This document shows positions 8,201-47,000 of a stretch of DNA of 64,000 bases, in pieces. Position 1 is the stretch's first letter, and every line of letters starts with the position of its first letter. The DNA lies in the NCBI RefSeq assembly GCF_021917145.1, contig NC_061062.1:657780-721779 (forward strand). Reading direction: 5' to 3'. The stretch is from Hypomesus transpacificus. Its lineage: Eukaryota; Chordata; Actinopteri; Osmeriformes; Osmeridae. The notes beneath the pieces were generated by a model. That model saw only the letters and a program-made list of their open reading frames with translations. It did no database searches and was not told the DNA's origin. The position numbers were made by a program, and so were the translations under genes.

Positions 8201-11200
8201 GTCTCCAGCCCATCAAACAGTGACTCGGAGAGTGACATCATCTTTGACAATGGAGACCAGAGTGAGGACAGTCTGTCTCAAGTGAGTCACAGAGTGAGGA
8301 CAGTCTGTCTCAAGTGAGTCACAGAGTGAGGACAGTCTGTCAGGTGGGTCACAGAGTGAGGACAGTCTGTCAGGTGGGTCACAGCAGACTGAGGACAGTC
8401 TGTCAGGTGAGTCACAGCAGACTGAGGACAGTCTGTCAGGTGGGTCACAGCAGACTGAGGACAGTCTGTCAGGTGAGTCACAGCAGACTGAGGACAGTCT
8501 GTCAGGTGGGTCACAGCAGACTGAGGACACTTTGTCTCAAGTGAGTCACAGCAGACTGAGGACAGTCTGTCAGGTGAGTCACAGCAGACTGAGGACAGTC
8601 TGTCAGGTGGGTCACAGAGTGAGGACAGTCTGTCAGGTGGGTCACAGACTGAGGACAGTCTGTCAAATGAGTCACAGCAGACTGAGGACAGTCTGTCAGG
8701 TGGGTCACAGAGTGAGGACAGTCTGTCAGGTGGGTCACAGACTGAGGACAGTCTGTCAAATGAGTCACAGCAGACTGAGGACAGTCTGTCAGGTGGGTCA
8801 CAGAGTGAGGACAGTCTGTCAGGTGGGTCACAGACTGAGGACAGTCTGTCAAATGAGTCACAGCAGACTGAGGACAGTCTGTCAGGTGGGTCACAGCAGA
8901 CTGAGGACAGTCTTTCAGGTGGGTCACAGAGTGATGACAGTCTGTCAGGTGGGTCACAGACTGAGGACAGTCTGTCTCAAGTGAGTCACAGAGTGAGGAC
9001 AGTCTGTCTCAAGTGAGTCACAGAGTGAGGACAGTCTGTCAGGTGGGTCACAGAGTGAGGACAGTCTGTCAGGTGGGTCACAGCAGACTGAGGACAGTCT
9101 GTCAGGTGAGTCACAGCAGACTGAGGACAGTCTGTTAGGTGGGTCACAGAGTGAGGACAGTCTGTCAGGTGGGTCACAGACTGAGGACAGTCTGTCAAAT
9201 GAGTCACAGCAGACTGAGGACACTTTGTCTCAAGTGAGTCACAGCAGACTGAGGACAGTCTGTCAGGTGAGTCACAGCAGACTGAGGACAGTCTGTCAGG
9301 TGGGTCACAGAGTGAGGACAGTCTGTCAGGTGGGTCACAGACTGAGGACAGTCTGTCAAATGAGTCACAGCAGACTGAGGACAGTCTGTCAGGTGGGTCA
9401 CAGCAGACTGAGGACAGTCTTTCAGGTGGGTCACAGAGTGATGACAGTCTGTCAGGTGGGTCACAGACTGAGGACAGTCTGTCTCAAGTGAGTCACAGAG
9501 TGAGGACAGTCTGTCTCAAGTGAGTCACAGAGTGAGGACAGTCTGTCAGGTGGGTCACAGAGTGAGGACAGTCTGTCAGGTGGGTCACAGCAGACTGAGG
9601 ACAGTCTGTCAGGTGAGTCACAGCAGACTGAGGACAGTCTGTCAGGTGGGTCACAGCAGACTGAGGACAGTCTGTCAGGTGGGTCACAGCAGACTGAGGA
9701 CAGTCTGTCAGGTGAGTCACAGCAGACTGAGGACAGTCTGTCAGGTGGGTCACAGCAGACTGAGGACACTTTGTCTCAAGTGAGTCACAGCAGACTGAGG
9801 ACAGTCTGTCAGGTGAGTCACAGCAGACTGAGGACAGTCTGTCAGGTGGGTCACAGAGTGAGGACAGTCTGTCAGGTGGGTCACAGACTGAGGACAGTCT
9901 GTCAAATGAGTCACAGCAGACTGAGGACAGTCTGTCAGGTGGGTCACAGAGTGAGGACAGTCTGTCAGGTGGGTCACAGACTGAGGACAGTCTGTCAAAT
10001 GAGTCACAGCAGACTGAGGACAGTCTGTCAGGTGGGTCACAGCAGACTGAGGACAGTCTTTCAGGTGGGTCACAGAGTGATGACAGTCTGTCAGGTGGGT
10101 CACAGACTGAGGACAGTCTGTCTCAAGTGAGTCACAGAGTGAGGACAGTCTGTCAGGTGGGTCACAGAGTGAGGACAGTCTGTCAGGTGGGTCACAGCAG
10201 ACTGAGGACAGTCTGTCAGGTGAGTCACAGCAGACTGAGGACAGTCTGTCAGGTGAGTCACAGCAGACTGAGGACAGTCTGTTAGGTGGGTCACAGAGTG
10301 AGGACAGTCTGTCAAATGAGTCACAGCAGACTGAGGACACTTTGTCTCAAGTGAGTCACAGCAGACTGAGGACAGTCTGTCAGGTGAGTCACAGCAGACT
10401 GAGGACAGTCTGTCAGGTGGGTCACAGAGTGAGGACAGTCTGTCAGGTGGGTCACAGACTGAGGACAGTCTGTCAAATGAGTCACAGCAGACTGAGGACA
10501 GTCTGTCAGGTGGGTCACAGCAGACTGAGGACAGTCTTTCAGGTGGGTCACAGAGTGATGACAGTCTGTCAGGTGGGTCACAGACTGAGGACAGTCTGTC
10601 TCAAGTGAGTCACAGAGTGAGGACAGTCTGTCTCAAGTGAGTCACAGAGTGAGGACAGTCTGTCAGGTGGGTCACAGCAGACTGAGGACAGTCTGTCAGG
10701 TGAGTCACAGCAGACTGAGGACAGTCTGTTAGGTGGGTCACAGAGTGAGGACAGTCTGTCAGGTGGGTCACAGACTGAGGACAGTCTGTCAAATGAGTCA
10801 CAACAGACTGAGGACAGTCTGTCAAATGAGTCACAACAGACTGAGGACAGTCTGTCAGGTGGGTCACAGCAGACTGAGGACAGTCTTTCAGGTGGGTCAC
10901 AGAGTGATGACAGTCTGTCAGGTGGGTCACAGCAGTCTCACTTCTCTTATACGTGTGTTCATGTTCATCACTGTTTCACTCTTCCATGATGTTGTCTCAG
11001 GTGGAGCCCAGCAAGAGAGGAACAACAGAGACCACAGAGAGTACAGACTCAGAGAGACCTCAGCTCATCGCTCACTACCTCTATATCCAGGTACAGACCC
11101 AGATCACTACCTCTATATCCAGGTACAGACCCAGATCACTACCTCTATATCCAGGTACAGACCCAGATCACTCCCTCTGTATCCAGGTACAGACCCTAGA

Positions 11201-44089: not shown

Positions 44090-47000
44090 CTTACTGAGGA
44101 GAGCAGAGAGGACATCTTGAGAGTAATCCCCATCTGTGTCATCCTGCTTTTTACATTTCCACTTCAACTGGAAGAGAAAAGAAACAGTCAGTGCACAGGA
44201 CACAACCTAGACCAGCCTTCTCCCCTCCCCTGTCTATGACCTGCATGTGGAACAGTCTAACCCTCTCAGCGGGGGGGGGGGGGGGGGGGGGGGGGGTCCA
44301 GCACTGTTCACTGTCAAAGAAATTACCCTTCCATTTTTGGCAATCATTATTTGTCAAATGCTGTCTTCTTCCAGGGTCCAGGATAACCTTGAAGTCCACT
44401 CATCATCTCTCAGGCGAGGGGGATGCCCAGGGCCTAGCCTGCTCCAACACTTTACAGGAATACTTCTGTTACTGATAGTCTAAACAACCTAATGGAGATT
44501 GGAGTTCTCTGGCTGGACAAACACACACGTGTCTCCAGTTGTAGATTTGAAATCTTGGACCGGGAACCAGTAAAGAACGGGAAGGGTTTCAAAACCAAAC
44601 ACACTGTCACACCAACAAACTCCAGGCAGACAAATGTCCTGGTCTTAGAATCTGTTGTTCTGTGCAGAAGGAGACTGATTAATGAACAAGGACCAGTAAT
44701 ATTATTCAGTTGCATTAGGACAAGGTATCAAGGATAAAGGATCTCCAGTTAACCTAAACCTAAAACGTAACTGATTTGTCATAATTATAAAATGTTCTGT
44801 TTGGAAATTTATCTTGTGGGATTTATTTTGGCACAAAGTGAAAGATTAAGTTCTTATCATTTACTGTGAACACATAGCTCTGTGCTGGAACACAAGGAAA
44901 CAGCAGTGCTCTCACGGCAGAGGTCATTACAGACTTAGCCAGACATCAAAAAGCTATTCAGATGTCCTGTATTTGGTCTCATCAATACTGCAGTAGAACA
45001 CCCTTAAACCTGTGTGCTGGTGTACTTAGTGAACATGTTGAGCCTCAGAAACAGCAGGGCCAGAGCAAGCCAGCCTTCCCATCATGCCTATCTTCCTTCA
45101 ACACAAACGAAGCCGTTTTTGAGAGGATACACTGATCCCGATGGCTATCGGACATTTGAACAAGATTAAATATCTAAACACATTAGCTAACCTCCCTGGT
45201 GTGCTTTAATGCAGGGGAACTGGGTGAGTTCCAGAGGACAGAGAATAAGGCCTCTCTGTACGTAGTTACTGCCCTCCTGACGACGGCCTCCGTGGAGGAA
45301 GGCTACGTGCAGCTTTAGGGGAGAGGGGAGGGCTCTCATATACACTCCAAATGTCTTTGGTTTCAGCTGAACTCCGCTAGCATACAGCATGAAATACCTT
45401 GGAGGTTAGGAACATGTTTTACTCAATATACAGATTCCTCAATGTGGAGACCCCCCCCATCAGTCCCTCCCTCCATTCCTCCTCTCCCACAAGAACCCTG
45501 ACCCTAACCAGGGCTCCTGAGCCCCTCCCCTGACTGATCCCAGAACCTCTTACTTTTAATTTAGGGGTCACGTTGCTCTTGGAGAGTTGGTTGCTCTTGG
45601 AATCTGAGCTCGTGAGAAGAGGAGACAGAAAGACAGAAGATTATTCATCCAAACAAACAGACAAACACCCGGTGTGGTCGGGGAAGGCGGTGCCCCCTGG
45701 GCTGCAGGAGAGAGCAGCCTCTGTGTGGATCCAGACAGCCACCCTCTCTTCGGGCCGCTGGTCACTGTGGTTCCAGTGGTAGCTGTCTGCTAGTCCCACC
45801 ATGCTGGCTCTGGCTCCAGCCTGCTGGCCTGGAGCACGCTCTCCTCCAGGGGGGGGCCTGCTAGCGTGCGAGCAGAGGGGGAAGACGTGCTGACCTGGGC
45901 CAGCCCCACACCTCCCTCAGGAAGAGGCCAGTAGAGCCCGTTATCGGCCGATATTACGCACTTTCCAAACTATCGGTATCAGCATTTATAATGGCTTTAT
46001 ATGGGGTTATTGTATTCCTCTGTTCTGTTGTGACAATAAAACAAACAAGTTTATTTTTAAACTGCATCATCATATTATTTTAGTGAAGACTCATAAAAAA
46101 ATAACAGGAGTCAGATGCCTGAGTGGTTAGGGAATCGGGCTATCAATCAGAAGGTTGCCAGTTCGATACCCGCCCATGCAAAATGACGATGTGTCCTTTG
46201 GCAAGGCACTTCACCCTACTTGACTCGGGGGAATGTCCATGTACTTACTTCAAGTCGCTCTGGATAAGTGTGTCTGCTAAAAATGTAAACTACAAATTAC
46301 TAATGTTGGGGAATTCAGTTTGTTTTGTCATGTGTGATATATATATATACATATATATATGTCGGCCGATATATCGGAATATTGGATTTTTAAAACAGCA
46401 AATATTCGTATCGGTATCGGCCTTAAAAATCATTTTTTGGTCGGGCTCTAGAGGCCAGCCCCCTCAGGGAGAGGCCAGCCTCCCTTTACGAGCCCCTCAG
46501 TCCTGCTCAGTCAGCCATCCAAACAAACAGCCTCTTTCTCTTCGTATGTTAATACATCATTTCATTGACAGAGGAGGTTGTGTGTGTGTGTGTTACCCGT
46601 GTGTGTGCAGCCTGTGTTGTGTGTGTGTCCTTGTCTCTCTCTCTGGATTTGCTCCTTGATCAGTCTCTGTTCCTCCTGCAGCTGCCTGGAGCCCTCCTCC
46701 CTGAGACGGGCTATCTGGAGCGAGCACACACACACACACACACAGTTACCCAACACACACTCACAGTTACCCCACACACACACACACAGTTACCCCCCAC
46801 ACACACACAGTTACCCCACACACACACAGTTACCCCACACACACACAGTTACCCAACACACCCACCCCCACACACAGTTACCCCACACAGACACACAGTT
46901 ACCCAACACACCCACACACGCACCCACCCCCACACACAGTTACCCCACACAGACACACAGTTACCCAACACACACACACACGCACCCACCCCCACACACA

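Follow-up and report, generated by a model that had tools for sequence, protein, structure and literature searches.

The window analysed here, a 64,000-nucleotide stretch of the Hypomesus transpacificus genome (assembly GCF_021917145.1, contig NC_061062.1, positions 657,780 to 721,779), contains eif2ak4 (GCN2) on the forward strand and partial crim1 and dnajc17 genes on the reverse strand, and six of the 55 introns of these genes begin with a tandem array whose unit consists of the end of the preceding exon followed by that exon's own donor (5' splice site). The exon chains were rebuilt by sequence reading and then checked for frame by script, and their translations had no internal stops. The eif2ak4 chain comprised 39 exons (1,650 amino acids, no stop), the crim1 chain 10 exons (578 amino acids) and the dnajc17 chain 8 exons with an open frame, which together supplied 55 donors and 55 acceptors. 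Pfam assigned RWD, kinase, HisRS-like and anticodon-binding domains to the eif2ak4 product, with GCN2 as the best PDB match of the HisRS-like part, VWC, antistasin and CRIM1_C domains to the crim1 product, and a DnaJ domain within the first 154 residues to the dnajc17 product.

The junction minisatellites, with the first of their exons for reference (a slash marks the exon-intron border), are the following:

8209..8281, forward strand: eif2ak4 exon 13, ending TCTCAA/gtgagt, donor at 8282
8258..10935, forward strand: eif2ak4 exon 13 junction minisatellite, 30/33-bp unit, about 83 units, 24 exonic bases included
11072..11209, forward strand: eif2ak4 exon 14 junction minisatellite, 32-bp unit, 4.2 copies, donor at 11091
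19174..19768, forward strand: eif2ak4 exon 29 junction minisatellite, mixed 13/24-bp units, donor at 19188
33507..33981, reverse strand: junction minisatellite of crim1 exon 7 (VWC, 33956-34171), 53-bp unit, 9 copies
35154..35547, reverse strand: junction minisatellite of crim1 exon 6 (VWC, 35545-35754), irregular units with CAG/gtactg repeated
43233..44103, reverse strand: junction minisatellite of dnajc17 exon 8 (44090-44167), 20-bp unit, 44 copies

Sequence reading, the exon chains and Tandem Repeats Finder (TRF) placed all six arrays at the exons named in the original prediction, and its periods were confirmed, that of crim1 exon 6 being irregular. In the latter array the anchors are separated by 22 to 102 bases and the unit includes only about four exonic bases; TRF alone ends the array at 35528, leaving a gap of about 16 nt to the donor, and the first unit and the edge were assigned by hand. 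The junctions read GAGGACAGTCTGTCTCAA/gtgagtcacagagtgaggacagtctgtctcaagtgagt... at eif2ak4 exon 13, CACTACCTCTATATCCAG/gtacagacccagatcactacctctatatccaggtacag... at exon 14, TACGACCACCTG/gtacgaccacctggta... at exon 29, CAGTGCTGCCCTCACTGTCTGG/gtgagtgtctgg... at crim1 exon 7, CCCAG/gtactgtagctagcacag... at crim1 exon 6 and CTCTCCTCAGTAAG/gtgggtctatcttcactaaggtgggtc... at dnajc17 exon 8. By inspection the six units differ from one another and the arrays look independent, in line with the separate origins proposed for them, and a donor-side bias is plausible. The eif2ak4 exon 13 array holds many unit variants whose types recur in similar order, a higher-order pattern that suggests turnover.

That structured order of variants also bears on the quality of the assembly. 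Inflated or misplaced repeats would mimic such arrays, an explanation to which the N gap at 41206-41706, between crim1 and dnajc17 exon 8, lends some weight: neither the upstream crim1 exons nor dnajc17 exons 9 onward were found near it, and a human RRM fragment, compared with the window in search of dnajc17 exon 9 and beyond, gave no match better than E 1.1. The gap region is possibly a misjoin or a rearrangement. Against an artefact stand the variants of the exon 13 array and the exons flanking the five closed junction introns, which connect to give open reading frames belonging to known families. We therefore regard an artefactual origin of the arrays as highly improbable, although the assembly could have their copy numbers wrong.

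As a kind, the arrangement is already known, because human ABCA7 and CBS carry such variable number tandem repeats (VNTRs); what is unusual is its frequency (six of 55 donors) relative to the chance expectation within the window. When splice-donor VNTRs of the ABCA7/CBS type are defined by an own 5' splice site in the unit and a start at the exon end, all six arrays belong to them (crim1 exon 6 with its first unit assigned by hand). The original prediction knew of no named system, and the reports on ABCA7 (PMC5954066) and CBS (PMC2630376) correct it on this point. According to the former, the VNTR of ABCA7 intron 18 has a 25-bp unit, adjoins exon 18 with the canonical donor of that exon as its first GT, and is polymorphic at about 12 to 427 units; an isoform retaining a single unit, with a frameshift, amounts to 2 +/- 1%, and exon 19 skipping grows with array length and can exceed the canonical form in brain (PMC5954066). 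Junction arrays thus need not be harmless. The present arrays share with ABCA7, as far as it is described there, the position at the exon end and the first GT that serves as the exon's donor. They differ in that they include exonic bases and occur at six exons, whereas the ABCA7 repeat, found in one gene, is described as intronic and starting at the GT; it is also polymorphic and linked to exon 19 skipping, whereas the arrays described here come from the sequence of one assembly.

The closest anatomical match among the systems compared is the human CBS 31-bp VNTR, c.1444_1467+7(16_21), which by its name combines 24 exonic with 7 intronic bases in 16-21 copies (PMC2630376) and so has the same unit of exon tail plus donor, but occurs at a single locus of a single gene. 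A genome-scale survey covering human segmental duplications also lists minisatellites with an average 30-bp unit, including repeats at exon-intron boundaries tied to altered splicing; it concerns repeats that differ between recent paralogues, and its available part contains no comparison of donors with acceptors that we noted (PMC2812944). In the open-licence literature searched, we found no study that tests minisatellites at donors across a genome. In the five closed junction introns the acceptors fall beyond the arrays, and none of them belongs to the two of 55 acceptors that have a near copy within 120 nt. Introns are reportedly gained from tandem arrays or duplication, a proposal attributed to Zhuo et al. 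2007. The likeness is that a duplicated stretch with splice signals gives extra splice sites; the difference is that intron gain creates a new intron, whereas here multiplication would affect only the donor of an intron already in place.

We counted the sites that might compete with the real donors. When a donor-like site was defined as a GT scoring at or above the 10th percentile of real donors, the six arrays contained 187 in 5,151 bp, compared with 6.67 per kb in non-array intron. Downstream GT sites in the same intron with at most two mismatches to the real donor 9-mer numbered 69, 4 and 25 for eif2ak4 exons 13, 14 and 29, 8 and 14 for crim1 exons 7 and 6, and 45 for dnajc17 exon 8, so that the range first given, 3 to about 80 extra donors per intron, was a fair estimate of the 4 to 69 counted. 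For five arrays (dnajc17 not among them; at most four donors listed per array, within 600 nt), 17 of 19 valid downstream donors are predicted to produce a premature stop, the exceptions being +96 at exon 14 and +366 at exon 29. A further exon 14 site, at +397, falls past the end of the intron and is left out of the 19. Read-through at dnajc17 exon 8 meets a stop at +39. Since most of the later donors examined lead to a stop codon, the first donor is probably the one used.

The same counts bear on the idea that selection retains the arrays for their spare donors, which would safeguard or control how these exons are spliced. Several observations agree with it: the GGTA core is intact in 26 of the 28 units at exon 29, the dnajc17 exon 8 array carries 38 exact copies of its donor 9-mer, and the crim1 exon 6 donor is weak, at rank 4 among the 55 donors scored with a leave-one-out matrix. 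Weakness is not seen at the remaining five junction donors (ranks 44, 18, 25, 22 and 47), and a need of weak donors for help was accordingly rejected as a common cause. Homogenisation alone would also keep units alike. In the exon 13 array the donor core was CAGGTGGGTC in 44 of the 83 units, CTCAAGTGAG in 13, CAGGTGAGTC in 12 and TAGGTGGGTC in 3, and in 11 units the GT was lost (CAAATGAGTC); the donor-adjacent bases are more variable than most other positions of the unit, and across these 83 units the donor was not conserved above the rest, as selected spare donors would be. Around the donor there is little variation in the arrays of exon 29 (28 units) and crim1 exon 7 (8 units), and the dnajc17 units are cut at the donor, so that none of the three is informative on conservation. 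Given the variable donor bases of exon 13 and its GT-less units, and with premature stops behind 17 of the 19 alternative donors, selection for spare donors is unsupported and we consider it very unlikely.

To compare the positions of the arrays with chance, each array was collapsed to one unit and seeds were placed at random in the collapsed introns; the main set comprised 31 intronic arrays (period >=10, TRF score >=100). For these statistics the array at 35154 had its edge moved manually to the donor and was assigned a period of 22, the array at 19174 was given a period of 24, and the intron end at dnajc17 exon 7, here and in the coverage and density figures below, is one base off. Under global random seeding, six of the 31 arrays crossed a donor versus 1.1 expected (P 0.0007), one of them with its edge set by hand; TRF's own edges would give five. 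Three other cut-offs gave six versus 0.9-1.4 expected (P 0.0002-0.002). Five further arrays started within 16 nt past a donor (0.95 expected, P 0.002). At acceptors, one array crossed (1.1 expected) and two ended within 16 nt (0.96 expected). In the full set of 39 arrays (score >=50), four ended within 16 nt of an acceptor versus 1.2 expected (P 0.03), so weak short arrays gather at acceptors too.

The donor excess persisted when each array was kept in its own intron, a placement that removes the effect of short introns: 5 of 26 arrays crossed a donor (1.8 expected, P 0.026), and 12 of 26 lay within 50 nt of one (6.5 expected, P 0.006), with acceptors at chance (7 versus 6.5). This test covered 26 of the 31 arrays, two open introns, including that of dnajc17 exon 8, being left out. 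A test independent of TRF, in which a junction 16-mer was sought in a near copy within 120 nt, found one at 6 of 55 donors (P 0.018) and at 2 of 55 acceptors (P 0.63), the rate at interior positions being 3.8%; its six donors include that of eif2ak4 exon 15 but not that of crim1 exon 6. The P values are optimistic, because the window was chosen for its striking pattern and some limits, those of 16 and 50 nt, were picked after the data had been seen. We conclude that the window has a moderate donor bias, of about 2- to 5-fold. The comparison with random placement that had been proposed thus gives, within the window, an excess at donors but chance levels at acceptors, and the suggested process seeding duplication at junctions gains from an excess that holds with intron identity fixed but is modest, post hoc and drawn from one window. 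The alternative offered alongside it, that arrays are tolerated only where they create a spare donor, is contradicted: 25 of the 31 intronic arrays carry no copy of a donor junction (one copies an acceptor), and the GT-less exon 13 units and the premature stops count against it as well.

Five donor-flush arrays and one acceptor duplication came in addition to the arrays already predicted:

11987..13999, forward strand: array starting 8 nt past the eif2ak4 exon 18 donor, 16-bp unit, donor uncopied
15822..16038, forward strand: array starting 14 nt past the eif2ak4 exon 22 donor, 10-bp unit, low complexity, donor uncopied
22492..22585, forward strand: array starting 7 nt past the eif2ak4 exon 32 donor, 13-bp unit GCACAGGTGACAG, donor-like but not the exon's own
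23468..24068, forward strand: array starting 3 nt past the eif2ak4 exon 34 donor, 14-bp unit, donor uncopied
47630..48256, reverse strand: array starting 16 nt past the dnajc17 exon 4 donor, 15-bp unit, most of the intron, donor uncopied
18730..18818, forward strand: acceptor counter-case at eif2ak4 exon 28, acceptor and exon start duplicated once, 45 bp, in frame

Some property of the 5' splice site itself might start tandem duplication, making donors the birth sites of minisatellites, an explanation that we hold to be rather unlikely; similarity between exon tail and donor, co-transcriptional R-loops and U1-bound RNA are candidates for that property. The explanation draws on the donor-crossing excess (P 0.0002-0.003 globally and 0.013-0.026 within introns at two cut-offs), on the donor-flush arrays together with acceptors at chance, and on the eif2ak4 exon 29 donor, whose TAC repeats, by eye, an exonic TAC 13 bases upstream. 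It is weakened by the post hoc statistics from one window, by the P of only 0.018 in the strict TRF-free test, by the own-intron restriction, under which the expected number grows from 0.98 to 1.77, and by the 5 of 11 donor-side arrays that lack the donor. Nor were donor-like motifs enriched overall in the 25 non-junction arrays (mean P of 0.42 in sense and 0.54 in antisense, against shuffles that preserve base content only), and motif-driven seeding was rejected on this ground. The stronger form, in which 5' splice sites of this genome would be minisatellite birth sites through a process tied to splicing or to co-transcriptional DNA damage, we consider unlikely.

Single arrays did contain donor-like motifs, in sense at 22492 (P 0.018), 40934 (0.030) and 14050 (0.040), and in antisense at 14050, 48674 and 56199 (0 of 500 shuffles), 47630 (0.034) and 41078 (0.044); the array at 15822 was better than its shuffles in antisense, yet scored poorly. 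Hairpin-driven slippage was likewise rejected as a common cause. Two-unit DNA folds were made for 14 arrays, six at junctions and eight elsewhere, and only the array at 5253 stood out (z -4.45); that at 26327 reached -2.0, and the six junction units lay between -1.9 and +0.5.

The junction arrays are one part of a general abundance of minisatellites close to exons. With dnajc17 intron 1 set apart, arrays of any period with a TRF score >=50 cover 15,006 of 35,659 bp (42%) of the introns; they cover 215 of 8,106 bp (2.7%) of dnajc17 intron 1 and 429 of 12,419 bp (3.5%) outside genes (1-3394, 28238-31436 and 58175-64000). In an uncalibrated count, the number of minisatellites of period >=10 and score >=100 per collapsed kb fell from 3.56 at up to 50 bp from an exon to 0.97 at 50-150 bp and 0.16-0.49 at greater distances; after calibration, 17 of 26 arrays lay within 50 nt of an exon versus 6.5 expected globally and 11.8 within introns.

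On balance, the account we find somewhat more probable than not is that these are ordinary minisatellites in array-packed introns, of which the donor-spanning ones persist, with the spare donors as by-products. Exon-rich gene bodies here are dense in arrays, and small tandem duplications would arise in them frequently, probably by slippage or microhomology-mediated repair. Where a duplication spans a donor, the upstream copy would retain the full exon and its donor, splicing at the first donor would yield a normal mRNA, and later copies would be intronic; such arrays would survive because the first donor stays intact, and could then grow by unequal exchange and homogenise. A duplication that spans an acceptor would put a second acceptor ahead of the correct one, where it might be used prematurely, and so would more often do harm, an asymmetry that would account for donor crossing being common and acceptor crossing seldom.

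Several results weigh against this account of tolerated by-products. Plain tolerance predicts no donor excess over the intron interior, whereas 6 of 31 arrays crossed a donor against an expected 1.1, 5 more began within 16 nt past one against 0.95, and the own-intron excess within 50 nt (12 of 26 versus 6.5, P 0.006) points the same way. The acceptor half lacks support, since the deficit there is not significant (1 observed versus 1.0-1.8 expected). At eif2ak4 exon 28 the acceptors lie at 18756 and 18801, and the upstream one, if used, adds 15 residues; a comparable case is CBS 844ins68, a 68-bp duplication of the intron 7/exon 8 junction, which is spliced at the distal site and harmless (PMC2630376). 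Longer ABCA7 arrays are accompanied by more exon 19 skipping and lower expression (PMC5954066). Microhomology at the seed edges was seen only by eye, and the hairpin potential of the units is inconsistent. The account we favour thus leaves unexplained a modest additional preference for seeding at donors or immediately beyond them.

Other features of the window deserve mention. The arrays at 26327-26667 (12 units) and 14050-14241 (8 units) show TRF matches of 100% and are therefore very recent or recently homogenised. Dinucleotide microsatellites at 4459, 14427, 37614 and 40667 start 3-14 nt past a donor. The crim1 exon at 40723-40926 has an apparent GC donor (AAG/gcacgg, at 40721-40722). By eye, dnajc17 intron 1 contains a long open stretch at about 52800-55850 that resembles the reverse transcriptase of a long interspersed element, and intron 6 contains at about 46105-46290 an element like a short interspersed element with a tRNA-like head. 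One scan of 255 amino acids of the eif2ak4 kinase region against viral contigs found no relative.

Nature has in effect set up an experiment on donor choice in each junction intron, where between 4 and about 70 near-copies of the donor lie behind the exon. A rule of "first transcribed, first used" can be tested there without engineered constructs, and use of most of the later donors examined would ruin the mRNA. A donor excess that held across the genome would indicate a mutational process linked to exon ends and would provide a list of loci with possible splicing variation between individuals, as in human ABCA7. Should donors indeed be birth sites of minisatellites, a notable share of introns would start with an array, and many genes would carry tens of competing donors behind the working one.

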